Both the position numbers and the translations under genes were made by a program. Shown here piece after piece: positions 4,907-35,133 of a stretch of 35,217 nt of DNA. The stretch is from assembly GCF_011044975.1 (NCBI RefSeq), contig NZ_JAAKZV010000064.1:1-35217 (forward strand), written 5' to 3'. The stretch is from Streptomyces coryli. Its GTDB lineage: Bacteria; Actinomycetota; Actinomycetes; Streptomycetales; Streptomycetaceae. The first letter of the stretch is position 1. Each line of letters starts with the position of its first letter. Below the pieces are notes generated by a model. That model did not search any database. It saw only the letters and a program-made list of their open reading frames with translations, and was not told the origin of the DNA.

Positions 4907-4917
4907 GGCGGCCGACC

Positions 4918-6294
4918 CTACTGCCGCCCGCCGAAAGCCGACAGCGTGCGCTCCAGCAGCGGCAGCGCCCGCACCACCCGCCGCGAGCGGATCAGCGCGT
5001 CCCACGCGGGCTCGAACTTCTTCCACCCGCCCGCGTACGCGAGGTGCCGCAGCCGCTCGTGCGTCCCGGGCTGCTCAGCAGCGCCCCGCCAGATGTTCCG
5101 CCATCGGTAGAAGTCCCGGTACGCCCGCCAGTACCCGTCCTCCAGCTGCCGCGGCGTCATGCCGCGCGGCCGGTAGACCACGTGCCGGGTGTCGTAGAGA
5201 TCCCAGTCCCGGTGCACGATCCGGTCCTCCGACTCCAGTTGCTTCCACAGCCCGGTCGACGGATACGGGGTCATGATGGGGAAGGTCGCCGTCTCGATGC
5301 CCTGCTCGACCGCCCACGCCACCGTCCGGTCGAAGACGTCGGGCCCGTCCTGGTCCAGGCCGAAGACGAAGCTGGCGTTCACCATCACGCCCGCGTCGTG
5401 CAGGCGGCGGACCGCCGCCCCGTAATCCTTGCCGATGTTCTGGTCCTTGCGGCGCTCGGCGAGATTGGCGGAGTTGACGGTCTCGAAGCCGACGAAGAGG
5501 CTGCGCAGCCCGGCGTCGACCGCCTTCTCCAGCAGTCCCGGCTGCAGCACCGACTTCACCGTCCCGGCCGCCTGCCACAGCCGCCCCATGCCGGCCATGC
5601 CGTCGAAGAGGGCTTCGGCGAAGCGGCGGTTGCCCAGCAGGTGGTCGTCGAGGAAGTACAGGTGGCGGCCCGGCAGTCGGTCGATCTCGGCGAGCGCGTC
5701 GTCGACGGTCTGGGTGTAGAAGGACTTGCCGCCCTCGAAGAAGGCGTCCTTGTAGCAGAAGTCGCAGTGGTGCGGGCAGCCGCGCGAGACCACCAGGGAG
5801 TTGGGCACCAGGTACCGATGCCGCTTGATCAGGTCGCGGCGGATCGGCGGCAGCCCGGCGAGGGTGCGCTCCCGCCCGGAGTCGTAGCGGCGCGCGGGCA
5901 CCCCGTCCCGGAACTCCTTCAGGAAGCGTGGCCAGCTGTCCTCGCCAGGCCCGGTGAAGACCGTGTCCGCGTGCGCCGCCGCCTCCTCCGGCAGCGAGGT
6001 GACGTGCAGACCGCCCATCGCGACGTGCGCGCCCCGGGCGCGGAAGTGGTCGGCGATCTCGTACGCGCGGCGGGCCGAGGTGATGTAGGGCTGGAGGACG
6101 AGGAGTTCGGGAGTCGGCATGGCCTCCAGATCGAGGCGTTCGACGTGCTCGTCGTGGAGTTCGACCTCGTCGGTGTCGTCGAGATAGCCGGCGAGGGTGG
6201 CGAGGCCGAGGGGCGGGAAGAGCGAGTACTTGATCGGCCGGAAGAGCGGGCTGGTGGCCTCGGTCAGGGCGGGGAGGATCATCGTCACGCGCAT
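4918..6294 (-). CDS. B12-binding-domain-type radical SAM protein
   Basis: The 458-residue protein has an N-terminal region like a cobalamin-binding Rossmann domain (residues about 1-130, with PLGLATLAGYLDD and VAMGGLHVTSLPEE). A radical SAM core follows, with Cys173, Cys177 and Cys180 in SRGCPHHCDFCYKD binding the 4Fe-4S cluster. The downstream stretches FLDDHLLGNRRFAEALF and SLFVGFETVNSANLAERRKD are typical of the core. The canonical DxHxxG cobalamin ligand motif is not obvious, so B12 use is uncertain. The reaction is unknown. It forms an operon with the epimerase gene and diverges from the cupin gene. The ATG at 6294 has only a weak GAG ahead of it. Confidence 0.88.
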   Translation of the reverse strand: MRVTMILPALTEATSPLFRPIKYSLFPPLGLATLAGYLDDTDEVELHDEHVERLDLEAMPTPELLVLQPYITSARRAYEIADHFRARGAHVAMGGLHVTSLPEEAAAHADTVFTGPGEDSWPRFLKEFRDGVPARRYDSGRERTLAGLPPIRRDLIKRHRYLVPNSLVVSRGCPHHCDFCYKDAFFEGGKSFYTQTVDDALAEIDRLPGRHLYFLDDHLLGNRRFAEALFDGMAGMGRLWQAAGTVKSVLQPGLLEKAVDAGLRSLFVGFETVNSANLAERRKDQNIGKDYGAAVRRLHDAGVMVNASFVFGLDQDGPDVFDRTVAWAVEQGIETATFPIMTPYPSTGLWKQLESEDRIVHRDWDLYDTRHVVYRPRGMTPRQLEDGYWRAYRDFYRWRNIWRGAAEQPGTHERLRHLAYAGGWKKFEPAWDALIRSRRVVRALPLLERTLSAFGGRQ

Positions 6295-12786: not shown

Positions 12787-12844
12787 CCGATCCGGGCGCC
12801 GATCGAGTGACGTGACCAGCACGCATTCCCGATGCCCGGATCGG
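12787..12844. promoter_or_regulatory. 11-bp inverted repeat between divergent amidase and serine hydrolase genes
   Basis: CCGATCCGGGC (12787-12797) and GCCCGGATCGG (12834-12844) are perfect reverse complements with a 36-nt spacer. The centre of symmetry is 46 nt from one start codon and 50 nt from the other. This placement suggests a shared operator for both divergent genes, or a looped repressor site. The left arm overlaps the presumed promoter spacer of the amidase. Confidence 0.45.
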
Positions 12845-12864
12845 ATGCTGATACGAAAGGCGTG

Positions 12865-13845
12865 ATGCTCTCCCGTAACCGCGCGTTGTGGCTGCCGGGG
12901 GCCGTGCTGACGCTCGCCGCCGGCACGGCCCTGATCGCCCTGAACCGGGGGGCGGTGCCGGCGCCGGAAGGCACCGCCCCCCTCGTGGACCGGCGGCCAC
13001 CCGTGCAGGCCGCTCAGGCCGCTCAGGCGGCGACGCAGACGCACGAGCCCGTCGCCCGTCCCGCGCAGCGCTCCGCCGCGCGTACCGCGGCGGACGCGGT
13101 GCGGGACGAGTTGGGTGCCGCCGCGGACGGCGAGCGGCTGCGCTACAGCATCGCCGTGGAGGACCTGGACACCGGCGAGTTGGCGCACTCGGCCGCGGGC
13201 TCGGGCACGTACGACACGGCCAGCATCGTGAAGGTGAACATCCTGGCGGCCCTGCTGCTGCAGGCGCAGGCGACGGGCCAGGCGCTCACCCCCGCGCAGC
13301 AGGCGCTGGCGGCGTCCATGATCCGTAACAGCGACAACACGGCCACGGACACGCTGTGGCGCGCCATCGGCGGCGGCCCGGGCCTCGCCCGCGCGAACCG
13401 CACCTTCGGCCTGACCGATACGACCCCCGGCGCCGGCGGCCAGTGGGGCCTGACCCAGACGGTGGCGGCGGACCAGCTGCGGCTGCTGCGCGCGGTGTTC
13501 ACCAGCCCGTCGCCGCTCACCCACGCCTCGCAGGACTACATCAGGTCGCTGATGGGCAGCGTCGCCGCCGACCAGGACTGGGGCGTCCCGGCGGCGGCCC
13601 CGGAGTCGGCCGGCTTCGTCAAGAACGGCTGGCTCCCGCGCACGGGTTCCGGCGAGTGGGACGTCAACAGCATCGGCCGCGTCGACTACGCCGGCCACAC
13701 CCTCCTGGTGAGCGTCCTCTCGGACCACCACGCGACCCGCGAGGCGGGCATCGCGCTGGTCGAGAAGGCGGCGTCAACGGCCGTGCACGCGCTGGTCGCC
13801 GCGGCGGACACGCCGGCCCACGGCCCGGAGACACTGGCGCGCTGA
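12865..13845 (+). CDS. Membrane-anchored class A beta-lactamase-like serine hydrolase
   Basis: The 326-residue protein begins with a basic stretch and one hydrophobic segment (LWLPGAVLTLAAGTALIAL), either a signal anchor or an uncleaved signal. A Pro/Ala/Gln-rich linker follows. The penicillin-binding fold motifs are SxxK in TASIVKVN, SDN in IRNSDNTATD, and KNG in FVKNGWLPRTG in place of KTG. It is therefore an extracellular serine hydrolase of the class A beta-lactamase/D-Ala-D-Ala peptidase superfamily. The omega-loop ExxLN is not evident, so true beta-lactamase activity is uncertain. GAAAGG at 12855-12860 sits 4 nt from ATG; a GTG one codon upstream is an alternative start. Confidence 0.85.
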   Translation: MLSRNRALWLPGAVLTLAAGTALIALNRGAVPAPEGTAPLVDRRPPVQAAQAAQAATQTHEPVARPAQRSAARTAADAVRDELGAAADGERLRYSIAVEDLDTGELAHSAAGSGTYDTASIVKVNILAALLLQAQATGQALTPAQQALAASMIRNSDNTATDTLWRAIGGGPGLARANRTFGLTDTTPGAGGQWGLTQTVAADQLRLLRAVFTSPSPLTHASQDYIRSLMGSVAADQDWGVPAAAPESAGFVKNGWLPRTGSGEWDVNSIGRVDYAGHTLLVSVLSDHHATREAGIALVEKAASTAVHALVAAADTPAHGPETLAR

Positions 13846-22959: not shown

Positions 22960-23115
22960 ATGATTGTTCTTGGAGCCATTCTGCTCATCATCGGCATGTT
23001 GGCCGGTATCTCGCTCTTGACGACCATCGGCGCCGTGCTGCTCGTGGTCGGCGCCGCCCTGTGGATCCTCGGTGCGACCGGACGCGCGGTCGGCGGCCGC
23101 AGGCACTACTTCTGA
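22960..23115 (+). CDS. DUF6131-type small hydrophobic protein
   Basis: The 51-residue protein starts MIVLGAILLIIGMLAGISLL, continues TIGAVLLVVGAALWILGA, and ends with a GRAVGGRRHYF tail. Two closely spaced membrane segments and the conserved Gly-Gly-Arg-Arg-His-Tyr ending match the DUF6131 family of Actinobacteria, whose function is unknown. GGATGGGA (22946-22953) precedes ATG at 22960; an in-frame ATG at 22942 is an alternative. It overlaps the converging PHP gene by 10 bp and diverges from the FUSC gene. Confidence 0.85.
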   Translation: MIVLGAILLIIGMLAGISLLTTIGAVLLVVGAALWILGATGRAVGGRRHYF

Positions 23116-24149
23116 CCGGACCGCGTCCCGCCCTGGCCGGCGGTCCATGCCAGTAGCTCTTCCGCCGGCCAGGTGTTGATCACGCGCCGCGGTTCCACGC
23201 CGCACTCTTCCGCGCGGGCGCAGCCGAGGATCTGCCAGTCCAGCTGGCCCGGTGCGTGCGCGTCGGTGTCGATCGCGAACAGGGCGCCCGAGGCCACCGC
23301 CTGCCGCAGCAGCCGGCGGGGCGGGTCCAGCCGCTCCGGCCGACTGTTGATCTCCACGGCGGTGCCCGCCTCGGCACATGCGCCGAAGACCTCGTCGGCA
23401 TCGAACTGCGACTCCGGCCGGCCCCGCCCCGTCACCAGCCGCCCCGTGCAATGACCCAGCACATCGGCCGACGGATTGCGCACCGCCGCGACCATGCGGC
23501 GGGTCATCGCCGACCGGTCCATCCGCAGCTTGGAGTGCACGGAGACCACCACCACGTCGAGCTGGTCCAGGAGCTCCGGTTCCTGATCCAGCGAGCCGTC
23601 CTCGAGGATGTCGCACTCGATGCCGGTGAGCAGGCGAAACGGCGCCCAGCCGGCATTGAGCCCGGCCACCACCCGGAGCTGCTCGCGCAGCCGCTCCGGG
23701 GACAGCCCGCGCGCGATGGTCAGCCGCGGGGAGTGGTCGGTCAGGACCGCCCACTCGTGTCCGACCTCCTGTGCGGCGCGGCCCATCTCCTCGATCGGGC
23801 TGCCGCCGTCCGACCAGTCGGAGTGCAGGTGGCAGTCGCCGCGCAGCAGAGCGCGCAGGGCCTGGCCCGCCTCTCCGTCCGCGGTCAGCGGCTCCTGCGC
23901 CTGCTGCTCCAGCCATACGAGATAGTGCGGCGTCTCGCCGGCCAGGGCTTCCCTGATCACCTTGGCCGTCTTCGGGCCGATGCCCTTGAGGGACTCCAGT
24001 GACCCCTCGTCGACCCGGCGTCCGACCTCGCCGGGCGGCAGCTCCCGTACGGCGGCGGCAGCGCCGCGAAAGGCCCGCACCCGGTACGTCTCGGCGCGCG
24101 AGCGCTCCAGCAGAAACGCGATGCGCTCCAGCGCCTGCACCGGATCCAT
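23106..24149 (-). CDS. Helix-hairpin-helix plus PHP-domain protein (DNA polymerase X-like without polymerase core)
   Basis: The 347-residue protein has an N-terminal Pol beta-type 8-kDa helical domain (residues about 1-75, with the HhH LKGIGPKTAKVIREAL). A complete PHP phosphoesterase domain follows: GDCHLHSDWSDGG, LTDHS, GIECDILEDG, VVVSVHSKL, VLGHCTGR, VEINSRPERLDPP and AIDTDAHAPGQLD. These provide the His/Asp/Glu metal ligands. Bacterial PolX proteins carry a nucleotidyltransferase core between these two parts; here there is none. A role in trimming or dephosphorylating DNA ends is plausible given the divergent Ku gene, but histidinol-phosphatase-like activity cannot be excluded. A GTG two codons upstream (24155), preceded by GGAGG, is an equally possible start. 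Confidence 0.88.
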   Translation of the reverse strand: MDPVQALERIAFLLERSRAETYRVRAFRGAAAAVRELPPGEVGRRVDEGSLESLKGIGPKTAKVIREALAGETPHYLVWLEQQAQEPLTADGEAGQALRALLRGDCHLHSDWSDGGSPIEEMGRAAQEVGHEWAVLTDHSPRLTIARGLSPERLREQLRVVAGLNAGWAPFRLLTGIECDILEDGSLDQEPELLDQLDVVVVSVHSKLRMDRSAMTRRMVAAVRNPSADVLGHCTGRLVTGRGRPESQFDADEVFGACAEAGTAVEINSRPERLDPPRRLLRQAVASGALFAIDTDAHAPGQLDWQILGCARAEECGVEPRRVINTWPAEELLAWTAGQGGTRSGQK

Positions 24150-24325
24150 GGACACCTTCCGCCTCCGCCGCGTCGTCCCTCTCGCTCACTCCAGGCTCGC
24201 GCACCATCGCCGATGTGGCATGTGCAGCACACCAGCGCAGCGGCTCCGAAAACGGGTGCATGAGGGGCATAAGCCTGGATACCCGGATGAAAGCAAGCGC
24301 CGGTGACGTACGAAGGGGAGATGAG

Positions 24326-25279
24326 ATGGCCCGTACCGTCTGGTCGGGTTCGCTGTCCTTCGGACTGGTGAACCTGCCGGTCGCGATGGCCGCGGCCACG
24401 GGCTCCCACACGGTCCATTTCCACCAGCTGGAACGCGGCACCTCGGACCGGGTACGGAACAAGCGCGTGAACGAGCGCACCGGCAAGGAGGTCCCGTACG
24501 ACAAGATCGTGAAGGGATATCCGGCGGGGGACGGCGATGACGGGTACGTAGTGGTCGAGCCGGAGGAGCTGGACGACATCGCCCCCGGCCGCTCCAGGAC
24601 CATCGACGTCGCGGGCTTCGCCGCGCTGGAGGACATCGACCCGGTCTACTTCGACGCCACGTACTATCTGCAGCCGCGCAAGGACGCGGACAGCAAGACC
24701 TACGCCGTGCTGCGCGACACGCTGAAGCGGACCGGCCGCGCCGGGATCGCCACGATGAGCATGCGGCAGAAGGAGCACCTGGTCGCGGTCCACGCCGAGG
24801 ACGACGTCCTCGTCCTGCACACGCTGCACTGGGCCGACGAGGTACGCGAGCCGCGCGACACCCTCGACCGGCTGCCCGACGGCAGCAAGGCCTCCGCCAA
24901 GGAACACCGGATGGCCGAGCAGCTCGTCGACACCATGGCCATCGACTTCGACCCGCGGGACTACCGCGACCGCACCCAGGAGCGGGTGGAGGAACTGATC
25001 TCCGCCAAGCGGGACGGCGGGACGGTCGAGAAGGCGGCGGAGGCGCCGGAGGACACCAACGTCGTCGACCTGACCGCCACCCTCCAGCGCTCCGTGGAGT
25101 CGGCACGCCAACGGCGCGGCGGCGGCCGTACGCGCAAGGACGGCAGCGGACTTGAGCGGCTGACGAAGAGCGAGCTCTACCGGCGGGCGTCGGAGGCCGG
25201 CATCAGCGGCCGCTCGAAGATGAACCGGAAGGAACTGCTGCGCGCCCTCCGCGCGGCCGACACCAGGAAAGCCTCGTGA
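24326..25279 (+). CDS. ku: Ku homodimeric DNA end-binding protein (non-homologous end joining)
   Basis: The 317-residue protein begins MARTVWSGSLSFGLVNLPVAM, the classic bacterial Ku start. The Ku core covers about residues 1-255 (GYVVVEPEEL, YLQPRKDADSKTYAVLRDTLKRTGRAGI, MRQKEHLVAV, YRDRTQERVEELISAK). After a basic linker the C-terminus carries a Rho-N/SAP-like helical module (LTKSELYRRASEAGISGRSKM, about 281-312), common in Streptomyces Ku. Ku binds broken DNA ends and recruits LigD-type ligases; no ligD is in the window. GGGGAG (24315-24320) at 5-nt spacing supports the ATG at 24326. It diverges from the PHP gene. Confidence 0.95.
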   Translation: MARTVWSGSLSFGLVNLPVAMAAATGSHTVHFHQLERGTSDRVRNKRVNERTGKEVPYDKIVKGYPAGDGDDGYVVVEPEELDDIAPGRSRTIDVAGFAALEDIDPVYFDATYYLQPRKDADSKTYAVLRDTLKRTGRAGIATMSMRQKEHLVAVHAEDDVLVLHTLHWADEVREPRDTLDRLPDGSKASAKEHRMAEQLVDTMAIDFDPRDYRDRTQERVEELISAKRDGGTVEKAAEAPEDTNVVDLTATLQRSVESARQRRGGGRTRKDGSGLERLTKSELYRRASEAGISGRSKMNRKELLRALRAADTRKAS

Positions 25280-26707: not shown

Positions 26708-27058
26708 TCAGTACGTGATCAGCCGCAGCGTCAGCGCGGCGGCACCGAGCAGCAGGTTCACCACCGGCGGGCCGAGGTGTGCCGTATCGCGGAACCGGAC
26801 GTGTGCCCCGCACGCCAGCAGGAAGTAGACGGTGACGCCGGTCGCCGCGGCGATGCCGATCGGAGCCCAGAACAGCCCGGCGATCAGTCCGGCGACGGCG
26901 CAAGCCAGCACCCCCGCCAGTGCGTTGAGCCGCTCCTCGGGCACGTGCACCCGGGCGTAGCCTTCGACAACATCGGGCTTGTGGCTGAGCTTCAAGGCCA
27001 CCGACGCCGCCAGGGAGGCGGCTAGTACGGCGGTGATGACGACGGTTGCGACGAACAT
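26708..27058 (-). CDS. DoxX-like four-helix membrane protein
   Basis: The 116-residue protein has four hydrophobic segments: FVATVVITAVLAASLAASVALK, LAGVLACAVAGLIAGLF, GIAAATGVTVYFLLACGAH, and VNLLLGAAALTLRL. With the polar KLSHKPDVVEGYARVHVPEE loop after helix 1, this fits the DoxX/DoxX_2 family of small membrane proteins. Family roles range from terminal oxidase subunits to redox and stress functions; none can be assigned here. The ATG at 27058 directly begins helix 1. It is divergent from the HAD gene (83-nt gap). Confidence 0.75.
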   Translation of the reverse strand: MFVATVVITAVLAASLAASVALKLSHKPDVVEGYARVHVPEERLNALAGVLACAVAGLIAGLFWAPIGIAAATGVTVYFLLACGAHVRFRDTAHLGPPVVNLLLGAAALTLRLITY

Positions 27059-27141
27059 CGGCGGCTCCGTACTCCGGCTGGCACACCACCCCGGTCTTGC
27101 CCCGATTATCCGCCATGTGCGGCCGCCCAGAGGGAGGTTGT

Positions 27142-27894
27142 GTGCAGGCAAGTAGGTACGTCGTTCTCGTGGATCTGGACGACACGCTGATCCCGGACCG
27201 CAGTGCGGCCTGGGCGGCTGTGGAGGCCACGCTGCATTCGCTCGGAGTGGCGCGTGCTTCGGAGCGCGTGCAGAGCGTCTTCGACATTGCCCGGTCCTGT
27301 TGGCGGGCAGGACCGTACTTCGAGTCGCTCAAGGGCCTGGGGATCAGCTCTTGGGAGGCGCTCTGGGCGGATCTGACACTTGCGTCGGTGCCGGAGGCGG
27401 GCGGGTGGGGACTGCGGTATCGCCTCGAGGTCTGGGGCGACGTGCTGCGGACCGCGGGCGCGGTTGCGGAAGCGGATCGCGAGGATGCCGCGCGACAGTT
27501 CGTACGGCATCGGCAAGAGCTGGTGCGGTGCCTGCCCGGGGCGGCGGAGTTCGTCGAGCGGATGGCTCGCGATCACGAGGTCTGGCTGATGACGAACGGG
27601 GCCTCTCGGCTGCAGCGCCTCAAGTTGAGCCTCAGCGGGCTGGATCAGTACGTTGCCCGGGTGTTCGTCTCCTCGGAGGTCGGGCACGCCAAGCCGCATC
27701 CGCGGTTCTTCGAGGCAGTGAGTGACGCGCTCCTCGACGATCAGGCCGTGTGTCTGGTGGTGGGCGACAGCCTGGACGGGGACGTACGTCCGGCGCTGGA
27801 CCGGGGGTGGCCCGCGGTCCACCTGCCCTGCACGCGCGTCAGCTTGATTGGCGACGTCGTCCCTCCGTGCTCTCACCGCGCGGACGCCTCCTGA
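27142..27894 (+). CDS. HAD-superfamily phosphohydrolase
   Basis: The 250-residue protein has all four HAD motifs: DLDDTL with nucleophile Asp11 and general acid Asp13, MTNGAS (motif II), Lys in GHAKPHPRFFE (motif III), and VVGDSLDGDVRPA (motif IV). A helical cap (residues about 20-120) places it among subfamily I phosphatases acting on small phosphate esters. GGGAGG (27132-27137) lies 4 nt before the GTG at 27142 and decides the start over an upstream ATG at 27115. Its stop is 3 nt before the first ARE of the hormone locus. Participation in hormone synthesis, by dephosphorylating the butenolide phosphate intermediate, is conceivable but not shown. Confidence 0.88.
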   Translation: MQASRYVVLVDLDDTLIPDRSAAWAAVEATLHSLGVARASERVQSVFDIARSCWRAGPYFESLKGLGISSWEALWADLTLASVPEAGGWGLRYRLEVWGDVLRTAGAVAEADREDAARQFVRHRQELVRCLPGAAEFVERMARDHEVWLMTNGASRLQRLKLSLSGLDQYVARVFVSSEVGHAKPHPRFFEAVSDALLDDQAVCLVVGDSLDGDVRPALDRGWPAVHLPCTRVSLIGDVVPPCSHRADAS

Positions 27895-27897
27895 CTT

Positions 27898-27919
27898 ATA
27901 CAGACCGCCCGTGCCGTTT
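27898..27919. promoter_or_regulatory. ARE 1: autoregulatory element upstream of the pseudoreceptor gene
   Basis: The 22-bp site begins ATACAGACCG and ends CCGTTT. By eye it matches 17 of 21 informative positions of the published ScbR/FarA-type ARE consensus. It lies 258 nt before the pseudoreceptor start. Confidence 0.65.
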
Positions 27920-28072
27920 ATCACTTGGTGATGAGTTGGCATGGGTCGGGGTGGGTAGCGGCCCCTGAGGTGCGTTGTTTACAGTCAGGTGTGGGGTGTT
28001 GGGCGTAGGGTGCGGAATCGCGAGTTGACATATAGGGCAAACTTTTCCGCGGGCGGGCACATGTGGGCTTGA

Positions 28073-28094
28073 AAACAGCATGAATGGTCTGTTT
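28073..28094. promoter_or_regulatory. ARE 2: autoregulatory element upstream of the pseudoreceptor gene
   Basis: The 22-bp site starts AAACAGCATG and ends GGTCTGTTT, with perfect outer arms AAACAG/CTGTTT. It agrees with the ARE consensus at nearly every position (two mismatches in the left arm and one at the centre). It lies 82 nt before the pseudoreceptor GTG. Confidence 0.75.
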
Positions 28095-28176
28095 AATGTG
28101 CGTGCGGCCCGGCATTCCTCGCCCGCGGTCAGGCGGCGTGCGATCCCCGTATGACGGGCCGACGGGAGCGATACGA

Positions 28177-28815
28177 GTGACGATTCAGCACCGGGCCGCC
28201 AAGACGCGATTGGCCCTGATCCGGTCTGCCGCCGAGGATTTCGCCGAGCGGGGTTACAGGTCCAGCACGCTGGAGGCGATCACTCGCCGCGCCGGGGTGA
28301 GCACCGGGGCGCTGCATTTCCATTTCGAGAACAAGGCGGCGCTGGCGACTGCCGTACAGGACGCCGCCCAGCAGGTGTTGGCGCGGATCGTCGCCGACTC
28401 GCGGTCAGGTGACGACGGCGCGCTGCAGCGGCTGACCGACGCCTCTCAGGAACTGGCCGCCCGGATGCGGGTGGACGTCGTCCTGCGTGCCGGATTCCGG
28501 CTCGGCTGGGAGGACGGCCGCCGGGACAGCGATGGCCTGCACCGGATGTGGCAGGAGTGTGTGACGGCGCTGATGGGCGCAGCCCAGTCGGAGGGTGCGC
28601 TCGCGGCCGACGTCAGGGCCGAGGAGGCCGTGCTCACCATCGTCGCCGCCACCACGGGATTCGAGGCACTGAGCCAGGAGGATCCCGTGTGGATCTCCCA
28701 CTCCACGTTCACCGGATTCTGGAGACTGCTGCTGCCGAGTCTTGCGTGTCCCGAGGCCCTGGACGGGCTGGATCCCGCGGGAAGGCAGCAAACCCGTGGG
28801 GGGACAGCTGGATAA
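28177..28815 (+). CDS. ScbR-family TetR-type regulator, probably a pseudo gamma-butyrolactone receptor
   Basis: The 212-residue protein has an N-terminal TetR HTH (residues 8-55: EDFAERGYRSSTLEAITRRAGV, STGALHFHFENKAALA), very close to gamma-butyrolactone receptors. The ligand domain is more divergent: WEDGRRDSDGLHRMWQECV places Trp125 near the usual ligand Trp, but the P-x-W context of true receptors is missing. Such pseudoreceptors often bind antibiotics or other signals and repress the same ARE sites. GGGAG (28164-28168) is 8 nt before the GTG at 28177. Two ARE-like sites lie upstream, so it is probably itself hormone-controlled. It converges on the AfsA-like gene. Confidence 0.85.
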   Translation: MTIQHRAAKTRLALIRSAAEDFAERGYRSSTLEAITRRAGVSTGALHFHFENKAALATAVQDAAQQVLARIVADSRSGDDGALQRLTDASQELAARMRVDVVLRAGFRLGWEDGRRDSDGLHRMWQECVTALMGAAQSEGALAADVRAEEAVLTIVAATTGFEALSQEDPVWISHSTFTGFWRLLLPSLACPEALDGLDPAGRQQTRGGTAG

Positions 28816-28834
28816 CGGCGGTATGGATACGCCG
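28815..28834. terminator. Possible hairpin between pseudoreceptor and synthase genes
   Basis: ACGGCGGTATGGATACGCCG can fold with GTAT/ATAC and flanking G/C pairs apart from one bulge. It sits in the 44-nt gap between two converging genes. The stem is short, so support is weak. Confidence 0.3.
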
Positions 28835-28859
28835 AGTTGGCGGGCCGAGCGAGGCGTAG

Positions 28860-29819
28860 TCAGGCCTGCGCCGCCAGGCCGGCCAGCGGGTGGGCCCCGG
28901 AGCCGACGGACTGGCTCGCTTCCATGTGGCAGCGGAAGACGACCTCGCCGTCCTGTGTCCCGGTGACCTCGGCGGCCGCCGCGAAGGGCGTCAGGGCAGG
29001 GATTTCGCTGGCCTCCAGCCAGCAGGGAGCGTCGAACTCGACGTACTGGTACGGGCGGAGCGCGGCCGCAGTGAAGGCGTAACCGGGCTGCAGCGTGCCG
29101 GCGAAGGCCGCCTGCCGGGCCGCTTCCATCAGGACCAGGCCGGGCACGTGGTCGACGGCATGGTCGATCAGCGCAGGGTGGCCGGGGTTCGGCCGCAGCT
29201 CCCAGCGCTTCCCGTCGCCGAGCGGTGCCAGCAGCGTCTCGTCGTCGCTGTGCCGGCCAACTGCCAGGGGCGATACGGGTATCGAGGTGGGGGCGGGGCT
29301 GACCGGGCGGCGGTCGCCGCGCAATCGGGCGTAGACCTGCGGGGCGATCCAGCCGAGGCCGGCGTCGGCGGTGCCGAAGATGCCGCCGGCGTGCCAGAGC
29401 GTCAGCGCGACGTCCACGGCTCGGCGGTTGCGCCGGGTGAACACCACGTCGAGCGTGACCCGGGCGTCGGTATCGGGCAGGTTCAGCGGGTCGAGCCGGT
29501 AGGTGAGGCGGTTCATCAGGAAGTGGTCGGTCGGCGGCACGCCGGACTCGACGTGCAGCAGGCCGAGGACGCCCTGCCGAATCGTTTGCTCTACCAGCAT
29601 GGTGTGGTCGGCGGCCGAGGCGAGAGTGCGGAAGAAGCAGTGCGGCCGGGACCAGTCGGCGTCGACGGAGTAGTGCTGGTCGCTGTGGCGACTCCAGCCG
29701 CAGATGAGGACATCCTCATCGTGAACGCGGTGCACCTGCCCGGGAGTCGGAGTTTTCGTCGGGGGCTGCGAGGGTCTGTCTTCGCTGGCCCGGTCTGCTT
29801 TCCCGTTCGGTGTGGACAT
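28860..29819 (-). CDS. AfsA/ScbA-type gamma-butyrolactone synthase
   Basis: The 319-residue protein consists of two AfsA repeats (hotdog folds), about 30-165 and 205-310. Each holds a conserved Glu/Arg cluster: LVEQTIRQG (77-83) and LVLMEAARQAAFAG (Glu232, Arg235). The second matches the Glu/Arg pair found essential in ScbA. AfsA-type enzymes join a beta-ketoacyl thioester with dihydroxyacetone phosphate to start the gamma-butyrolactone or butenolide hormone. GAGAGGGG (29827-29834) lies 7 nt before ATG at 29819. A promoter overlapped by ARE 3 lies upstream, and the gene diverges from its receptor gene, as in scbA/scbR. It contains no TTA codon. Confidence 0.92.
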   Translation of the reverse strand: MSTPNGKADRASEDRPSQPPTKTPTPGQVHRVHDEDVLICGWSRHSDQHYSVDADWSRPHCFFRTLASAADHTMLVEQTIRQGVLGLLHVESGVPPTDHFLMNRLTYRLDPLNLPDTDARVTLDVVFTRRNRRAVDVALTLWHAGGIFGTADAGLGWIAPQVYARLRGDRRPVSPAPTSIPVSPLAVGRHSDDETLLAPLGDGKRWELRPNPGHPALIDHAVDHVPGLVLMEAARQAAFAGTLQPGYAFTAAALRPYQYVEFDAPCWLEASEIPALTPFAAAAEVTGTQDGEVVFRCHMEASQSVGSGAHPLAGLAAQA

Positions 29820-29900
29820 GCTCGTACCCCTCTCTGGGGAACGCTGGGGGAACGCACGGCGCCTCTCGAATCCGGAGGCGTAGGCTCTGCATGACGTAGT

Positions 29901-29922
29901 AAACATACGGTCGGTCCGGTTT
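29901..29922. promoter_or_regulatory. ARE 3: operator across the AfsA-like promoter
   Basis: The 22-bp site begins AAACATACGG and ends CCGGTTT. The outer arms AAAC/GTTT and the ACATAC core match the ARE consensus; the centre is less perfect. It covers the -10 box and most of the spacer of the minus-strand promoter, so a bound receptor would block RNA polymerase. Confidence 0.75.
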
Positions 29923-29930
29923 CTTTTCAA
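29902..29930 (-). promoter_or_regulatory. Promoter of the AfsA-like synthase gene
   Basis: On the minus strand TTGAAA (29925-29930) and TATGTT (29902-29907) are 17 nt apart, a good vegetative -35/-10 pair. Transcription would start near 29895, about 75 nt before the ATG. ARE 3 lies inside it. Confidence 0.6.
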
Positions 29931-29999
29931 GCAAAACCGGGGGTGCTCCACAAGCGGAAGCCCCGATACTCGTCAGAGATGACTGCGGTAAGTACCCTG

Positions 30000-30021
30000 T
30001 AAAGTACGGGGTGGTCGGTTT
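30000..30021. promoter_or_regulatory. ARE 4: weaker autoregulatory element before the receptor gene
   Basis: The right half GGTCGGTTT agrees fully with the ARE right arm. The left half (TAAAGTACGG) is degenerate. It lies 40 nt upstream of the receptor start, in the position of the scbR autoregulatory site. Confidence 0.5.
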
Positions 30022-30061
30022 TAATCTTCATCAGTTCTGGCGCAGTGGGGGAGGAGATCAG

Positions 30062-30709
30062 ATGGCTCAGCAGGAGCGCGCCATCCGCACCCGGAAAGTG
30101 GTGCTCGACGCCGCGGGTGCCGTGTTCGCCGAGCAGGGATACAGCGCCACCACCATCGCGGAGATCCTCAAACGCGCCGGCGTGACGAAGGGCGCGTTGT
30201 ACTTCCACTTTCCGTCGAAGCAGGATCTGGCCAGAGGCGTCATCGAGCAGGCGGTCACGGAACCTCCGCGCGAGGAGGAGCTGATCCTGCAGTCCTTCGT
30301 GGACATGGGGCTGGAGCTGGCCTACCGCCTGCCGCGCGAACCGGTGCTGCGCGGCGCCGCCCGGCTCGCCGCCGACCAGGGCGCTCCCGACTTCTTCGGC
30401 ACCCCGTGGCCGCAATGGGCCTATCGCGGCGAGCAGTTGCTCAACAAGGCGAAGGCGCAGGGTGAAGTGCTGCCGCACGTCGACGCCGCGGTCACCTCCC
30501 GGCTGCTGGTCGGCTCCTTCACCGGCCTGCAGCTGGTCGCGCAGTCGGAGGCCGGGGCGGAGAGCTTCCAGGAGCTGGTCTCGCGACTGTACGATCACGT
30601 GCTGCCGGCCGTGGCTCTGCCCGGGGTGCTCATGCAGCTGGACACCTCGGTCGAGCGCGGCGCGCTGCTGGCCGAACGCAAGCCGCACAAGCAGGAAGCG
30701 ATGTCCTGA
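30062..30709 (+). CDS. ScbR/ArpA-type gamma-butyrolactone receptor (TetR family)
   Basis: The 215-residue protein has a TetR HTH (residues 10-55: AVFAEQGYSATTIAEILKRAGV, KGALYFHFPSKQDLA) and the receptor ligand domain. FFGTPWPQWAYRGEQLL places Trp at position 119, the residue needed for hormone binding in ArpA/CprB-type receptors, so it should be a true receptor. It would repress its own gene, the divergent synthase, and other ARE-bearing genes until hormone binds. GGAG (30053-30056) is 5 nt before ATG. The SDR gene follows after 37 nt on the same strand, so the two are probably one transcript. No TTA codon. Confidence 0.92.
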   Translation: MAQQERAIRTRKVVLDAAGAVFAEQGYSATTIAEILKRAGVTKGALYFHFPSKQDLARGVIEQAVTEPPREEELILQSFVDMGLELAYRLPREPVLRGAARLAADQGAPDFFGTPWPQWAYRGEQLLNKAKAQGEVLPHVDAAVTSRLLVGSFTGLQLVAQSEAGAESFQELVSRLYDHVLPAVALPGVLMQLDTSVERGALLAERKPHKQEAMS

Positions 30710-30746
30710 GCGACGTACGGATCGCACTCACACGGCAGGGGTGGGC

Positions 30747-31511
30747 ATGGATCAGCTCGGCGGCAAGGTCGCACTGGTAACCGGCGCGAGCCGGGGGATC
30801 GGCAGGGCCATCGCGCAGCGACTGGCCGGCGCGGGTGCGCTGGTCGCGGTGCACTACAAGAGCAACCGGGCCGCCGCGGAGGAGACCACGGACGCGATAC
30901 GGCGGGCCGGCGGCCGTGCGTTACCGGTCGAAGCCGACCTGGCCGCGCCCGATGCCGCCGATACGGTCTACGCGGCGCTGGACGCGGGGCTGAAGGAGGA
31001 AGGGCTCGAGGCCGGCTTCGACATTCTGGTCAACAACGCGGCGCTGGGCCCCGCGGTGCCGCTGGCCCAGGTCACGCCCGAGCACCTCGACGAGCTGCTG
31101 GCCATCAACGCCAGGTCGCCGTTCTTCCTCGTCCAGCAGGGACTGCCGCGGCTGCGGGACAACGGGCGGATCATCAACATCTCGTCACTGGCCTCCCGTA
31201 CCGCCTTCCCCGAGGCCATCGCGTACGCCATGACCAAGGGCGCGCTCGATGCCTTCACCCTCGCGCTGGCCAAGGAGGTCGCCCCCCGGGGCATCACGGT
31301 CAACGCCGTCGCCCCGGGGTTCGTCGAGACGGACATGAACGCGCCGCTGCGTGAAAGCGAGCAGGGGCGGCAGTGGCTCGCCTCCCAGTCGGTGTTCAAC
31401 CGGATCGGCCAGCCGGCCGATATCGCGGATGCCGTGGCCTTCCTGGCCTCCGGCGAGGCGCGGTGGATCACCGGCCAGTGGCTGAGCGTGAGCGGCGGAT
31501 CGGCTCTGTAG
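30747..31511 (+). CDS. Short-chain dehydrogenase/reductase, likely hormone ketoreductase
   Basis: The 254-residue classical SDR has VALVTGASRGIGRAIAQ (cofactor site, residues 7-24), LVNNAAL, the catalytic Ser in NISSLAS and Tyr/Lys in YAMTKGA, plus the C-terminal GFVETDMNAP and SVSGGSAL. It should be an NADPH/NADH-dependent ketoreductase. In related hormone loci an SDR reduces the 6-keto group of the butyrolactone (BarS1/ScbB-like roles), which fits its place directly behind the receptor gene. FabG-like activity is the alternative. Codon 59 is TTA (30921-30923), so translation should need bldA. It converges on the P450 gene with a 9-nt gap. Confidence 0.88.
   Translation: MDQLGGKVALVTGASRGIGRAIAQRLAGAGALVAVHYKSNRAAAEETTDAIRRAGGRALPVEADLAAPDAADTVYAALDAGLKEEGLEAGFDILVNNAALGPAVPLAQVTPEHLDELLAINARSPFFLVQQGLPRLRDNGRIINISSLASRTAFPEAIAYAMTKGALDAFTLALAKEVAPRGITVNAVAPGFVETDMNAPLRESEQGRQWLASQSVFNRIGQPADIADAVAFLASGEARWITGQWLSVSGGSAL
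30921..30923 (+). other. TTA codon 59 in the SDR gene
   Basis: The frame reads GCG TTA CCG. It is the first of three TTA codons in the hormone locus and is read by the bldA tRNA in Streptomyces. Confidence 0.85.
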
Positions 31512-31520
31512 GGACCCGGT

Positions 31521-32789
31521 CTAGAGCCCCGCCACGGACAGTGCGGTCCCCGCCCGCGGGCCGGGGAGCACCGGCAGCTCCCGGTGGCCGTTGAGGACCA
31601 GCGAGGACACGGGCTCGAGCCGGTCGACAGGGACGGCCAGGCGCAGGTCGGGGAAGGCCGCGAAGAGGCTGTCCAGCGCGATCACCGCCTCCATGCGTCC
31701 CAGGGGCGCGCCCAGGCAGTGGTGCACGCCGTGGCCGAAGGCCACGTGGGTGGCGCGGGTGCCGCGGGTGAGGTCGAAGCGGTCGGCGTCATCGCCGTGC
31801 ACCCGCTCGTCGCGGCCCGCTCCCATGGCCGAGACGACGATGGCGTCCCCGCGGGGTATCAGCTCACCCGCGATCGACACGTCCTCGGTCGCGTACCGCA
31901 GCAGGAAGTTGGCAGCGGGCGGATCCAGCCGCAGGATCTCGTCGACGGCGTCCTCCCAGCCGTACAACCCCTCGCGGATCAGCTCCAGTTGTGCGGGGTG
32001 GGTGAGCAGGGCGTGCACACAGCGATCGATGAGGGTCGCCGTGGTCTCGTAGCCGGCCGCCACCAGGTGCAGCAGGGTGTCGGTGAGTTCCTGCTCCGTG
32101 ATGGCGTCCGCCCCTTCGGCCGCGCTCTGGGCCGCCAGCAAGGCGCTCGTCAGGTCCTCGCCCGGCTCGGCCCGCCGGGTGGCCACCAGGTCCGCGAGGA
32201 TCGCGTACATCTCGCCGGCGGCCTCCTGGGCGGCTGCCGCCGGCAGCGCGGTGTCGTGGAGGGCGGCGATGAGCCGGCGCAGCGGAAGGCGCTGCTCCTC
32301 GGGCACGCCGAACAGCAGGCAGATGACCCGGGCAGGTAAGGGCTCGGCATACGCCGTGCGCAGGTCGACCGGCTCGTCCGGGGGCAGTTGAGCGATTCCG
32401 TCCAGCAGGTCCGCCACCAGCCGCTCGATCTCGGGGCGCAGCCGCCGCACCTGCCGCATGGTGAAGCCGGCGGCGACGAACTTGCGCAGCCTGCTGTGGT
32501 CGGCGCCGGCCGAGGTGAACATGTTCTTCAGCGACACCCACTTGGCCAGGGACCAGTCGGTGGTCACCCGGCCGTCGATCCAGGCCTGCCAGTGCCGGCG
32601 CGGGTCCTTCGAGATCCGGGGGTCGGTCATCAGCTGCTTGGCCTCGGCCAGCCCCGACACCATCCACGCCGGTACGTCGCCGGGCAGGACCACGCGTGTC
32701 ACCGGGCCGAGTTGCCGCAGTTTGCGTACCTCACCCGGCAGGTCGGCGCCGGCAGGGTCAAGGGTCAGCGGGCACTGTTGTCTGGTCAC
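31521..32789 (-). CDS. Cytochrome P450 under ARE control
   Basis: The 422-residue P450 has the I-helix oxygen motif LVAAGYETTATLI, the K-helix ExxR in VDEILRLDPP, and the haem loop FGHGVHHCLGAPLGRME with its Cys thiolate. It is soluble and needs external ferredoxin and reductase. The GTG at 32789 is preferred over the ATG at 32813, because GGGAG (32797-32801) lies 7 nt before the GTG while nothing precedes the ATG. An ARE is 101 nt upstream and codon 151 is TTA (32337-32339). A role in oxidising the hormone side chain, as for P450s in butenolide pathways, or another metabolite, is inferred from context. Confidence 0.92.
   Translation of the reverse strand: MTRQQCPLTLDPAGADLPGEVRKLRQLGPVTRVVLPGDVPAWMVSGLAEAKQLMTDPRISKDPRRHWQAWIDGRVTTDWSLAKWVSLKNMFTSAGADHSRLRKFVAAGFTMRQVRRLRPEIERLVADLLDGIAQLPPDEPVDLRTAYAEPLPARVICLLFGVPEEQRLPLRRLIAALHDTALPAAAAQEAAGEMYAILADLVATRRAEPGEDLTSALLAAQSAAEGADAITEQELTDTLLHLVAAGYETTATLIDRCVHALLTHPAQLELIREGLYGWEDAVDEILRLDPPAANFLLRYATEDVSIAGELIPRGDAIVVSAMGAGRDERVHGDDADRFDLTRGTRATHVAFGHGVHHCLGAPLGRMEAVIALDSLFAAFPDLRLAVPVDRLEPVSSLVLNGHRELPVLPGPRAGTALSVAGL
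32337..32339 (-). other. TTA codon 151 in the first P450 gene
   Basis: The minus strand reads CCC TTA CCT in frame from the GTG at 32789. It implies bldA dependence of this P450. Confidence 0.85.
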
Positions 32790-32889
32790 AGGACGTCTCC
32801 CTTTCGATGGCATAGCTGGCGAATGACGAGCCGTGCATGGCGCGGTTGCGCTTGGCGCTGAGGGAGTCCTGAGAGCGAGTCTAAATAAG

Positions 32890-32911
32890 AAACAGTCCGT
32901 CCGGTATGGAT
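32890..32911. promoter_or_regulatory. ARE 5: autoregulatory element before the P450 gene
   Basis: The site begins AAACAGTCCG and ends GGTATGGAT. It matches the ARE consensus at all but about three positions. Its centre lies about 110 nt upstream of the P450 start, so the P450 should belong to the receptor regulon. Confidence 0.75.
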
Positions 32912-32977
32912 TCTGTTCGACTGCGGCTGCACTTCATACGGAGTTACGCGTTCCGTCACCGATGGCGACAGCGGTGG

Positions 32978-33886
32978 TCAGGGGCGCAGGACGACCTTGC
33001 CGACGGTGCGGCGGGCCAGCAGGTCCGCATGCGCCCGGCGGGCGTCGGCAAGCGGGTAGCTGCCGTGCACCACCGGCTTGAGGCGGCCGTCCGCCGTCAG
33101 CTCGAACAGCTCCCGCAGGGGCCCGTCGACCGCCCCGGGCCGGGCGAGTGCCGCACGGAGCCAGAAGCCCGCGACCGACGCGCTCAGCCGGCTCAGCCGC
33201 GCCGGGTCGACGTGGGGGATGCCGGTCCGCGCGGCACTGCCGTAACTCACCAGGCGGCCGAACGGAGCGAGGGTGTCCAGGGCTTGGCCGAAGAGATCCC
33301 CGCCGACCGCGTCCAGCACGACATCGGCCTGCCGGTCGTGGGGGTAGGTGATCACCTCGTCGGCGCCCAGCTCCAGGGCCAGCCGCTCTTTCGCGTCGGT
33401 GGATGCCTGGGCGCGGACGCACCCCGCGCCGAACTCCCGGGCGAGCTGCAGCGCCAGGCTGCCGACCCCGCCGGCGGCCGCGTGCACCACCACCGTCTCT
33501 CCCTGCTGCATCCGGGCCGCGGTGCGCAGCAGATGCCAGGCGGTCAGCCCCTGGACCAGCAGGGCGAGCGCCGCCCCGGCGTCGAGGTCCTCGGGGATCT
33601 CCCATACGGCGGCCTCCTCGGCCACCGCCAGCTCGGCGTATCCCTGGCGCACGCGGGCGAGCACCCGCCGTCCTTCGGGGGTGCGGCCGACCACCTCGGT
33701 TCCGGGGATGCACGGCAGCGGGTCGGATCCTGGATACGAGCCGTCGACGAGGTGAGTGTCGGCGAAGTTGACCCCGGCCGCCTCGACGGTGATCAGGACC
33801 TGTCCGGGGGACGGGCGCGGGACGGTCGTCTCGGTCGGAGTGAGGACCTCGGGTCCACCTATGCGGGCGAACTGGATGGCGAGCAC
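32978..33886 (-). CDS. Quinone-oxidoreductase-like (zinc-free MDR) NADPH enzyme
   Basis: The 302-residue protein is an MDR-superfamily oxidoreductase without the zinc ligands of alcohol dehydrogenases. The N-terminal catalytic domain has PGQVLITVEAAGVNFADTHLVDG and CIPGTEVVGR. The cofactor domain has VVVHAAAGGVGSLALQLAREFGA and ELGADEVITY. Family members reduce quinones or enones with NADPH. AGGG with 8-nt spacing supports the GTG at 33886; another GTG three codons upstream is possible. It is 47 nt downstream of the second P450 gene on the same strand, so the two are probably an operon. An enoyl reduction in hormone or secondary metabolite synthesis is possible. Confidence 0.9.
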   Translation of the reverse strand: MLAIQFARIGGPEVLTPTETTVPRPSPGQVLITVEAAGVNFADTHLVDGSYPGSDPLPCIPGTEVVGRTPEGRRVLARVRQGYAELAVAEEAAVWEIPEDLDAGAALALLVQGLTAWHLLRTAARMQQGETVVVHAAAGGVGSLALQLAREFGAGCVRAQASTDAKERLALELGADEVITYPHDRQADVVLDAVGGDLFGQALDTLAPFGRLVSYGSAARTGIPHVDPARLSRLSASVAGFWLRAALARPGAVDGPLRELFELTADGRLKPVVHGSYPLADARRAHADLLARRTVGKVVLRP

Positions 33887-33933
33887 GCACGGCACCCTAG
33901 CGCGGCCCCGGCCGGTGGTCATCGGCGCCGGCG

Positions 33934-35133
33934 CTACCACCGCACCGGCAGCCGGCGGACGCCCCGCAGCAGCATCCCGGGGATCCGGGCGCCGTGCTCC
34001 CCGCTCGTGTCGAGTGCCAGTCCGGGGCAGCGCTCGAGCAGCGCACCGAGTGCGACGCGCCCTTCGAGGCGGGCCAGCGGTGCGCCGAGGCAGTGGTGGA
34101 TGCCGTGGCCGAACCCGAGGTGGCCGGAGGGTTTTCGGTGGATGTCGAAGAGGTGGGCGTCGCGGAAGCGGCCCGGGTCCTGGTTGGCATCGGCCATGCA
34201 GATCAGCACGGTGGCGCCGCGCGGAATGACGGCGCCGCCGATGTCGATGGACTCCAGCGCCAGGCGCGGCGTGGACGACTCCACCGGACCGTCGTAGCGC
34301 AGGATTTCCTCGATGGTCTGCGGCAACAGCCCGTCCGGGTCGGCGCGCAGGGCGGCGAGCTGCTCGGGGTGGGCGAACAGGGCCCGCAGCCCGTTGCCGA
34401 TCAGATTGACCGTGGTCTCGTGTCCCGCGATCAGCAGCAGCCCGCAGGTGCCGAGGATCTCGTCCGGCGACAGCCGGTCACCGCCCTCGTCCACCGTATG
34501 CACCAGGGCGCTGAGCAGGTCGGGGCCCGGCCGGGCCCGCTTGGCGTCGATGAGCCCGGGCAGGTAGCCGTTCAGCTCCTGGTACGCGCGGGCCTCCGCC
34601 CGCGGACTGGTGCGGGACACCAGCTCGTTGGACCAGCTCCTGAAGGCCGCCCGGTCGAGTTCGGGCACGCCCAGCAGCTCGCAGATGATGGTCATCGGGA
34701 GCGGGAACGCGAAGCTGCCGATCACGTCGGCGCGGCGGTCCTCGGCGGCGAGCATGTGGTCCAGGAGCTCGTGCGCGAGGGCGGTCACGCGGGGATGCAG
34801 GGCCCGTACGCGGCGCTGGGTGAACTCGCGGGCGACCAGCCGCCGCAGCCGGGTGTGGGCCGGCGGATCCGCCATCAGCATGTGCGCGAGTGCCGGATCG
34901 TCGCCGGTGGTGTTGGTGATCCGGCCGACGTCGCCCGAGCGCGGCCAGTCGCGGCTGAGCCGGGCGTCCTGGCACGCCGCCCGGCAGGCGTCGTAGCCGA
35001 GGACGAGCCAGACCGTGTCGCCGTCCGGTGTCCGCACCTGGTGCACCGGGCCCTGCGCGCGGAGGCGCGCATACGCCGGGTAGGGGTCGGCCGCGAAATC
35101 CGGATCCAGTTCCAGAAGATCTAAGACAGGCAC
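33934..35133 (-). CDS. Second cytochrome P450 (CYP107-like)
   Basis: The 399-residue P450 starts GTG CCT GTC TTA, so codon 4 is TTA (35122-35124). It has LMADPPAHTRLRRLV, I-helix LLLIAGHETTVNLI, ExxR in IEEILRYDGP, and the haem loop LGFGHGIHHCLGAPLARLE. This resembles the CYP107/105 group that hydroxylates macrolides, polyketides and fatty acyl chains. Substrate and electron partners are unknown. The GTG at 35133 has no clear ribosome site, so the start is moderately uncertain. No ARE was found in the 84 nt up to the window edge. It is followed by the quinone-oxidoreductase-like gene. Confidence 0.93.
   Translation of the reverse strand: MPVLDLLELDPDFAADPYPAYARLRAQGPVHQVRTPDGDTVWLVLGYDACRAACQDARLSRDWPRSGDVGRITNTTGDDPALAHMLMADPPAHTRLRRLVAREFTQRRVRALHPRVTALAHELLDHMLAAEDRRADVIGSFAFPLPMTIICELLGVPELDRAAFRSWSNELVSRTSPRAEARAYQELNGYLPGLIDAKRARPGPDLLSALVHTVDEGGDRLSPDEILGTCGLLLIAGHETTVNLIGNGLRALFAHPEQLAALRADPDGLLPQTIEEILRYDGPVESSTPRLALESIDIGGAVIPRGATVLICMADANQDPGRFRDAHLFDIHRKPSGHLGFGHGIHHCLGAPLARLEGRVALGALLERCPGLALDTSGEHGARIPGMLLRGVRRLPVRW
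35122..35124 (-). other. TTA codon 4 in the second P450 gene
   Basis: The minus strand reads GTG CCT GTC TTA GAT. A TTA this close to the start, in a gene otherwise free of them, is a strong sign of bldA gating if the assigned start is right. Confidence 0.8.

Follow-up and report, generated by a model that had tools for sequence, protein, structure and literature searches.

In the butenolide (SRB) system of Streptomyces rochei, the cytochrome P450 SrrO oxidises the hormone side chain at C-6′ (PMC7564063), and a receptor-binding site has been reported ahead of srrB (PMC7296167); papers are cited here and below for the parts of their text that were available. The synthesis of avenolide depends on an acyl-CoA oxidase (PMC7554373). 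In the receptor AvaR1, Gln64 adjoins the lactone; receptors of lactone hormones are described as largely conserving this residue, which a furan receptor lacks (PMC7347384). Some of the A-factor, virginiae butanolide and SCB systems include a short-chain dehydrogenase (PMC5735094, PMC7554373), and it is considered hard to predict the hormone from the sequence of the AfsA-type synthase (PMC12301235). In the present work, we examine a hormone locus at the right end of a 35,217-nucleotide stretch of Streptomyces coryli DNA (contig NZ_JAAKZV010000064.1), called the window below. The locus contains an AfsA-type synthase, two ScbR-type regulators (R1 and R2), a short-chain dehydrogenase/reductase (SDR), two cytochromes P450 (P450a and P450b) and a medium-chain dehydrogenase/reductase (MDR), all of them at the places given in a preliminary description of the sequence.

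We consider it an even chance that this is a working SRB-type locus in which the synthase and the receptor represent, by descent or by convergence, a distinct class marked by Gln78 in the former and Ala64 in the latter, the hormone head group then being probably changed. One synthase residue and one receptor residue split the examined neighbour pairs into two classes without exception. If this reading is true, the class of hormone could be read from genomes, and there would be a new inducer to seek for some silent antibiotic clusters. The class residues, the neighbouring genes and the autoregulatory element (ARE) sites are read directly from the DNA.

The Gln78/Ala64 pair and the MDR

Two alignments of AfsA proteins were used. 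In the first, 71 of 85 hits were kept after short, ambiguous and duplicate ones had been dropped; the second kept 81 of 107 and, with SrrX and the window synthase, has 82 distinct rows, of which the tree omits one short row. At position 78, in the first repeat, 66 of the 82 have Glu and 16, including the window synthase, have Gln. The motif there is QTIRQ in the window synthase and ETxRQ in most others, while the second repeat keeps EAARQ and with it E232 and R235, the Glu/Arg pair on which the preliminary description had relied; Gln78 is not mentioned in that description. We take the first-repeat Glu to be E78 of ScbA, assuming a Glu at that position of ScbA (AfsA, BarX and ScbA themselves are not in the alignments), and E232 and R235 to be E240 and R243 of ScbA. 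ScbA E78, E240 and R243 have reportedly been mutated, and position 78 is taken as catalytic. The available text of PMC7756379 and PMC7756420 does not mention these three residues.

All 16 Gln-type synthases lie on one side of a single branch (ultrafast bootstrap 99, SH-aLRT 93), which holds when the trait columns are blanked (SH-aLRT 87, quick method), and every one of the 66 distinct rows outside this clade has Glu. The window synthase forms the deepest and longest branch of the clade and has W157 and L228 in common with it. The other 15 members all keep H30, R81, Q82, H89, E232, Q236 and E261, and their residue at position 235 is His (7), Cys (2), Tyr (2), Asp (2), Val (1) or Arg (1). Unlike most core members, the window synthase retains R235, H60 and H214. 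Two Glu78 synthases, in loci L202 and L204 (synthase at 4910-5854), have Asn at 214 and His at 235, in place of His and Arg; changes at these two positions can therefore occur together without Gln78. In an AlphaFold2 model built from 21 rows (mean pLDDT 82.7), Gln78 and E232 are found on two equivalent long helices, and the helices 73-92 and 227-241 are flanked by strands as in a tandem hot-dog fold, on a reading of the secondary structure only. We infer two sites in the double hot-dog, one served by residue 78 and R235 and the other, which is kept, by R81 and E232.

The synthase has no close relatives in the collections searched. When five candidates per genome were scored in 394 Streptomycetaceae genomes, 334 had some match, the best among the matches listed being 42% identical. 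Of 158 plasmid records, 40 were listed, with identities of at most 38.9%; a pattern scan of the genome contigs collection found no relative, and 14 control genomes gave no match to the AfsA family. The preliminary description had named a grouping with inactive AfsA homologues as the outcome that would speak against a functional core. Half of this is seen: the synthase groups with the Gln78 AfsAs, for which we found no activity tests.

On the receptor side, R2 has AvaR1 as its best solved relative and carries Ala, Ala and Trp at AvaR1 positions 64, 108 and 127, with Gly for Thr131. Trp127 is kept in every receptor compared; the hormone-pocket Trp that had been noted earlier for one receptor does align there, and it is not limited to that protein, since it aligns in both regulators. 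Neighbour pairs were counted in loci of at least 5 kb in which the receptor was nearest by BLAST (>110 bits) to R2, SrrA, AvaR1 or the receptor of locus L139 and lay at most 5 kb from the AfsA gene, pairs with other regulators being excluded. Among 58 such pairs, 38 are Glu78/Gln64 and 14 are Gln78/Ala64. The remaining 6, with a cut synthase row, were resolved from other alignments, and the 58 pairs and the window (Gln78 synthase, Ala64 R2) follow the rule without exception. In a set of 38 loci, with L006 left out, complete separation of the classes is seen at only five columns, two in the synthase (78 and 176) and three in the receptor (64, 155 and 180). Gln78/Ala64 pairs occur on linear plasmids. 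In L207, L208 and L209, from plasmids of Streptomyces sp. NBC_00178, NBC_01422 and NBC_01174, the pair is bare; another ScbR gene, this one with Gln64, is also present, and genes for plasmid maintenance or transfer lie in the vicinity.

The MDR has orthologues at 67-74% identity in 16 of the 394 genomes, the next group reaching at most 58%, and in the tree it nests among such orthologues in a group of 18 rows. An AfsA gene lies within ~6 kb in 12 of the 16, and all 12 of these AfsAs are of the Gln78 type, while none of 38 loci with a non-Gln78 AfsA has an MDR above 35% identity. The best solved relatives of the MDR include quinone and enoyl reductases, which fits a role in double-bond reduction. 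In five Actinopolyspora loci (L027 to L031), an MDR of 32-35% identity lies between the receptor and the AfsA gene, divergent from the latter. This is possibly an independent recruitment, and these MDRs are excluded from the partner count. The MDR neighbourhoods in L191 and L192 hold acyl-CoA dehydrogenase and transposase genes.

Gene set and ARE sites

The coordinates are collected in Table 1. From left to right, the genes are R1 (+), synthase (−), R2 (+), SDR (+), P450a (−), MDR (−) and P450b (−). Family scans back each gene name in the hormone locus: the synthase scores 247.4 bits against NCBIfam ScbA_BarX (NF041195; cut-off 200), and R1 and R2 score 173.5 and 196.6 bits against ScbR_bind_reg (cut-off 150). 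The start of R1 is probably the GTG, because the ATG that opens its reading frame falls within an ARE. R2 and the SDR are probably carried on one transcript.

Table 1. Features of the hormone locus, with positions in the window.
Feature	Position	Strand	Score (bits)	Remark
ARE-like site 5	27898..27923		11.2	weakest
ARE-like site 4	28069..28094		17.2	upstream of R1
R1, SrrB-like pseudo-receptor-type TetR regulator	28177..28815	+		GTG start (probable); reading frame opens at 28084
AfsA-type synthase, Gln78 class	28860..29819	−
Codons E232 to R235, second-repeat Glu/Arg pair	29115..29126	−
Codon of synthase Gln78	29586..29588	−
ARE-like site 1	29901..29926		28.0	ahead of synthase
ARE-like site 2	30000..30025		25.0	ahead of R2-SDR
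R2, SrrA/AvaR1-like receptor	30062..30709	+		Trp retained, Ala at AvaR1 Gln64 position
Codon of R2 Ala64	30251..30253	+
SrrG-type SDR	30747..31511	+		starts 37 bp after R2
P450a, SrrO-type hormone-locus P450	31521..32813	−
ARE-like site 3	32886..32911		20.3	P450a promoter region
MDR, quinone-oxidoreductase-like	32978..33886	−		start taken at GTG 33886
P450b, PikC-like	33934..35133	−		upstream of MDR, same strand

For the srr genes we used pSGRIFU1 of S. griseofuscus, the SRB locus of which agrees with the published genes in srrO size, gene order and srrB primer (PMC7564063, PMC7296167). The SRB-type SDR, P450, receptor and pseudo-receptor all have a match in the window: the SDR is 57.5% identical to SrrG, P450a 48.2% to SrrO, R2 52.2% to SrrA and R1 40.6% to SrrB. 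The synthase is 32.7% identical to SrrX, and the tree does not place it in the SrrX group. We rejected the idea that the entire locus has one SRB origin, as the synthase and the MDR group elsewhere. SrrG, the window SDR and further SDRs of AfsA loci share a branch of 10 rows, in a tree that carries long-branch warnings. The same warnings apply to the P450 tree, in which most P450s appear twice and few come from outside hormone loci. Among 25 plasmid relatives of P450a listed, five were opened, and all five adjoin AfsA and ScbR genes. R1 is nearest to SrrB in the receptor tree, a pairing that says little since the two are its sole pseudo-receptor rows; relatives of R1 in other loci reach 51% identity.

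The earlier suggestion of a modified butyrolactone or butenolide thus gains support from the SDR and P450a, with their relatives beside AfsA genes, and from the MDR, an orthologue of a recurrent AfsA neighbour. The inclusion of P450b in the locus is not supported. We rejected it as a hormone gene, since it is PikC-like and its best plasmid relative (64% identity) has no AfsA or ScbR gene in its 17 kb neighbourhood. As a PikC-type P450 close to the end of the window, it may point to a macrolide-like cluster further on.

No match to SrrP was found in the window by tblastn at E 0.01. An HAD-type hydrolase encoded at 27046-27894, immediately ahead of the locus, could provide a dephosphorylation step. 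It was considered as SrrP and rejected, with no BLAST similarity and, in the matrix scan of the window, no ARE ahead of the gene; the two proteins share only a broad Pfam family, for which SrrP is below the cut-off. Further to the left, at 23106-25279, genes for a Ku-domain protein and a PHP/HHH (polymerase X-like) protein form a non-homologous end-joining neighbourhood.

The ARE matrix was trained on 68 of 88 upstream stretches ahead of R2-like genes in other loci, the window being excluded, and the whole window was scanned with it; the background was 60 windows simulated with a first-order Markov model. All five ARE-like sites mentioned in the preliminary description are recovered in this way, and beyond them no separate match in the window scores above 6.3 bits. 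The simulated windows contain a mean of 0.15 matches above 10 bits, with a top score of 12.2 bits, and the weakest of the five sites is therefore within reach of chance. Site 1 overlaps a promoter-like TTGAAA-17-TATGTT (29930-29902, −) ahead of the synthase, as would be expected for repression by occlusion. By the site in its promoter region, P450a is tied to the predicted ARE regulon. No ARE is found ahead of P450b in the 84 upstream bases present, and since these are all that the window holds, MDR-P450b is not tied to the regulon.

Proposed function and alternative readings

The ratio of nonsynonymous to synonymous substitution rates (dN/dS), calculated for 8 of the 15 other Gln78 loci, is 0.19-0.44 for the synthases, 0.01-0.11 for the receptors and 0.14-0.27 for the MDRs. 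Judged by these ratios, all three genes are constrained, the synthase least. Together with the occurrence of the pairs on linear plasmids, this constraint makes a functioning system with an altered hormone seem likelier to us than an ordinary or a decayed one. The statement in the preliminary description that the core is functional on paper is not supported in this simple form: the first-repeat Glu is Gln and the lactone-adjacent Gln of the receptor is Ala.

The chemistry of such a system is our inference. The synthase would condense a 3-keto acyl thioester with a C3 unit by means of E232 and the Arg/Gln pairs of both repeats, and in the absence of the first-repeat Glu either the head group or the accepted C3 unit would be altered. 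The SDR would reduce the side-chain ketone adjoining the ring, P450a would oxidise the side chain in the manner of SrrO, and the ring double bond may be reduced by the MDR in a role like that of BprA. R2 would stay on the AREs ahead of the synthase, R2-SDR and P450a, to be released by binding of the hormone in its pocket, where Ala takes the place of the lactone-adjacent Gln. R1, which also has an ARE ahead of it, would later repress targets as SrrB does.

A number of observations weigh against this picture. Ten of the 16 Gln78 rows came in through the MDR search, and 5 of the 71 distinct relatives gathered without it have Gln78. The window synthase has a long branch (1.3) and a best identity of 42%, which makes its placement less sure. 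Most core members lack R235, H60 and H214, which fits the decay of one active site. The MDR is missing nearby in three of the five Gln78 loci found by synthase similarity and in three plasmid Gln78 loci that were opened; the 19 plasmid records that match the MDR include none of the four plasmids whose synthase shares 78-79% identity with a Gln78 synthase; and the orthologues in L191 and L192 (69%) lie on linear plasmids with no AfsA in the stretch read. As to the pairing itself, the Gln78/Ala64 correlation goes back to a single event in the synthase tree and to either one or two in the receptor tree. It does not comprise many independent cases, and much of it is shared history. R2 is placed beside SrrA, apart from the other Ala64 receptors (support 81/95), so Ala64 would have arisen twice; a single clade of R2 with the other Ala64 receptors, and hence one origin, is nonetheless compatible with the topology test (p-AU 0.44). 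Position 108, changed in R2, varies in both classes, and Ala or Gly at 64 is also found in R1, in SrrB and in 5 of 8 other second-type ScbR proteins.

The locus could be an ordinary one for an SRB-type butenolide or a P450-oxidised butyrolactone, in which Gln78 is tolerated, the usual butenolide phosphate is made and Ala64 merely tunes affinity. The match of the SDR, P450a, R2 and R1 to the SRB set agrees with this, as do the retained R235, H60 and H214, and AfsA homologues can have little sequence in common despite matching products, according to the available part of PMC12301235. We nevertheless regard it as unlikely, given that Glu is the residue in each of the 66 distinct AfsA rows not belonging to the Gln78 clade and that, in R2, the largely conserved Gln64 (PMC7347384) is changed to Ala and Thr131 to Gly. 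Hardly different in probability, and likewise improbable, is a degenerate pair, a synthase without catalysis and a receptor without hormone sensing, the latter kept as an ARE-binding repressor tuned otherwise, as in pseudo-receptors. The loss of both the key Glu and the lactone-adjacent Gln, the residues that most of the core clade has lost, a synthase dN/dS above the MDR and receptor values, and the Ala or Gly at 64 of R1, SrrB and several other pseudo-receptor-like proteins would all be explained. Set against this are dN/dS ratios below 1, the seven residues invariant in the 15 other members, Trp127 in every receptor compared, the joint occurrence of synthase and receptor on linear plasmids, and the open frames of the window SDR, P450a and MDR with AREs around them.

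Two further possibilities seem to us less probable than the working Gln78/Ala64 locus, although somewhat better placed than the two just discussed. One, which is compatible with the other readings, is that two loci adjoin: R1-synthase-R2-SDR-P450a would make the hormone, and P450b-MDR would be the edge of an unrelated cluster beyond the window. The PikC-like P450b, with its best plasmid relative outside a hormone locus and no ARE in the bases ahead of it, suggests such a boundary. The nesting of the MDR among orthologues of which 12 of 16 stand beside Gln78 synthases argues against it, and P450b alone could still be foreign. The other, which we hold tentatively, is that Gln78/Ala64 is a co-adapted class whose hormone has neither of the usual heads (2-alkyl butenolide or butyrolactone). 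The window would then be a hybrid with SRB-type tailoring, its product a P450-oxidised member of a new chemical family of Streptomyces hormones. No Gln78 AfsA or Ala64 receptor class was found among the papers listed from the open full-text literature, covered by titles and openings of abstracts, with most subscription papers outside and little of the search aimed at receptor position 64 or at synthase-receptor co-evolution.

Comparison with described hormone systems

The avenolide system of S. avermitilis (aco, cyp17, avaR1) has a P450 in the locus, as the window does, and R2 is nearest to AvaR1 among solved relatives; R2, however, lacks Gln64 and Thr108. The preliminary description had noted that the oxidase Aco is absent from the window, and we likewise find no acyl-CoA oxidase family in the 28 open reading frames scanned (those at 1460-1918, 12832-13845 and 26708-27151 are outside the scan). 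With no such enzyme in the scanned frames and both receptor markers absent, an avenolide-type locus was rejected. The A-factor, virginiae butanolide and SCB systems have an AfsA-type synthase and an ArpA/ScbR-type receptor like those of the window; a P450, on the other hand, is not named for them in the available text of PMC5735094 and PMC7554373.

The Gln78 AfsA-receptor-SDR-MDR loci of Streptomycetaceae (e.g. L139, L180 and L189) share with the window Gln78, Ala64 and the MDR at 67-74% identity. Their SDR, however, is of another branch (29-35% identity), the stretches read contain no P450 match at E 1e-6, and most of these loci have lost R235, H60 and H214. The SRB locus of S. rochei (srrX, srrG, srrO, srrA, srrB, srrP) has, in contrast, the same enzyme and regulator types as the window, and its site ahead of the pseudo-receptor gene corresponds to the ARE ahead of R1. 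The differences from it are a synthase of 33% identity with Gln78 instead of Glu, a receptor with Ala64 instead of Gln, no match to SrrP, an additional MDR and P450b, and another gene order.

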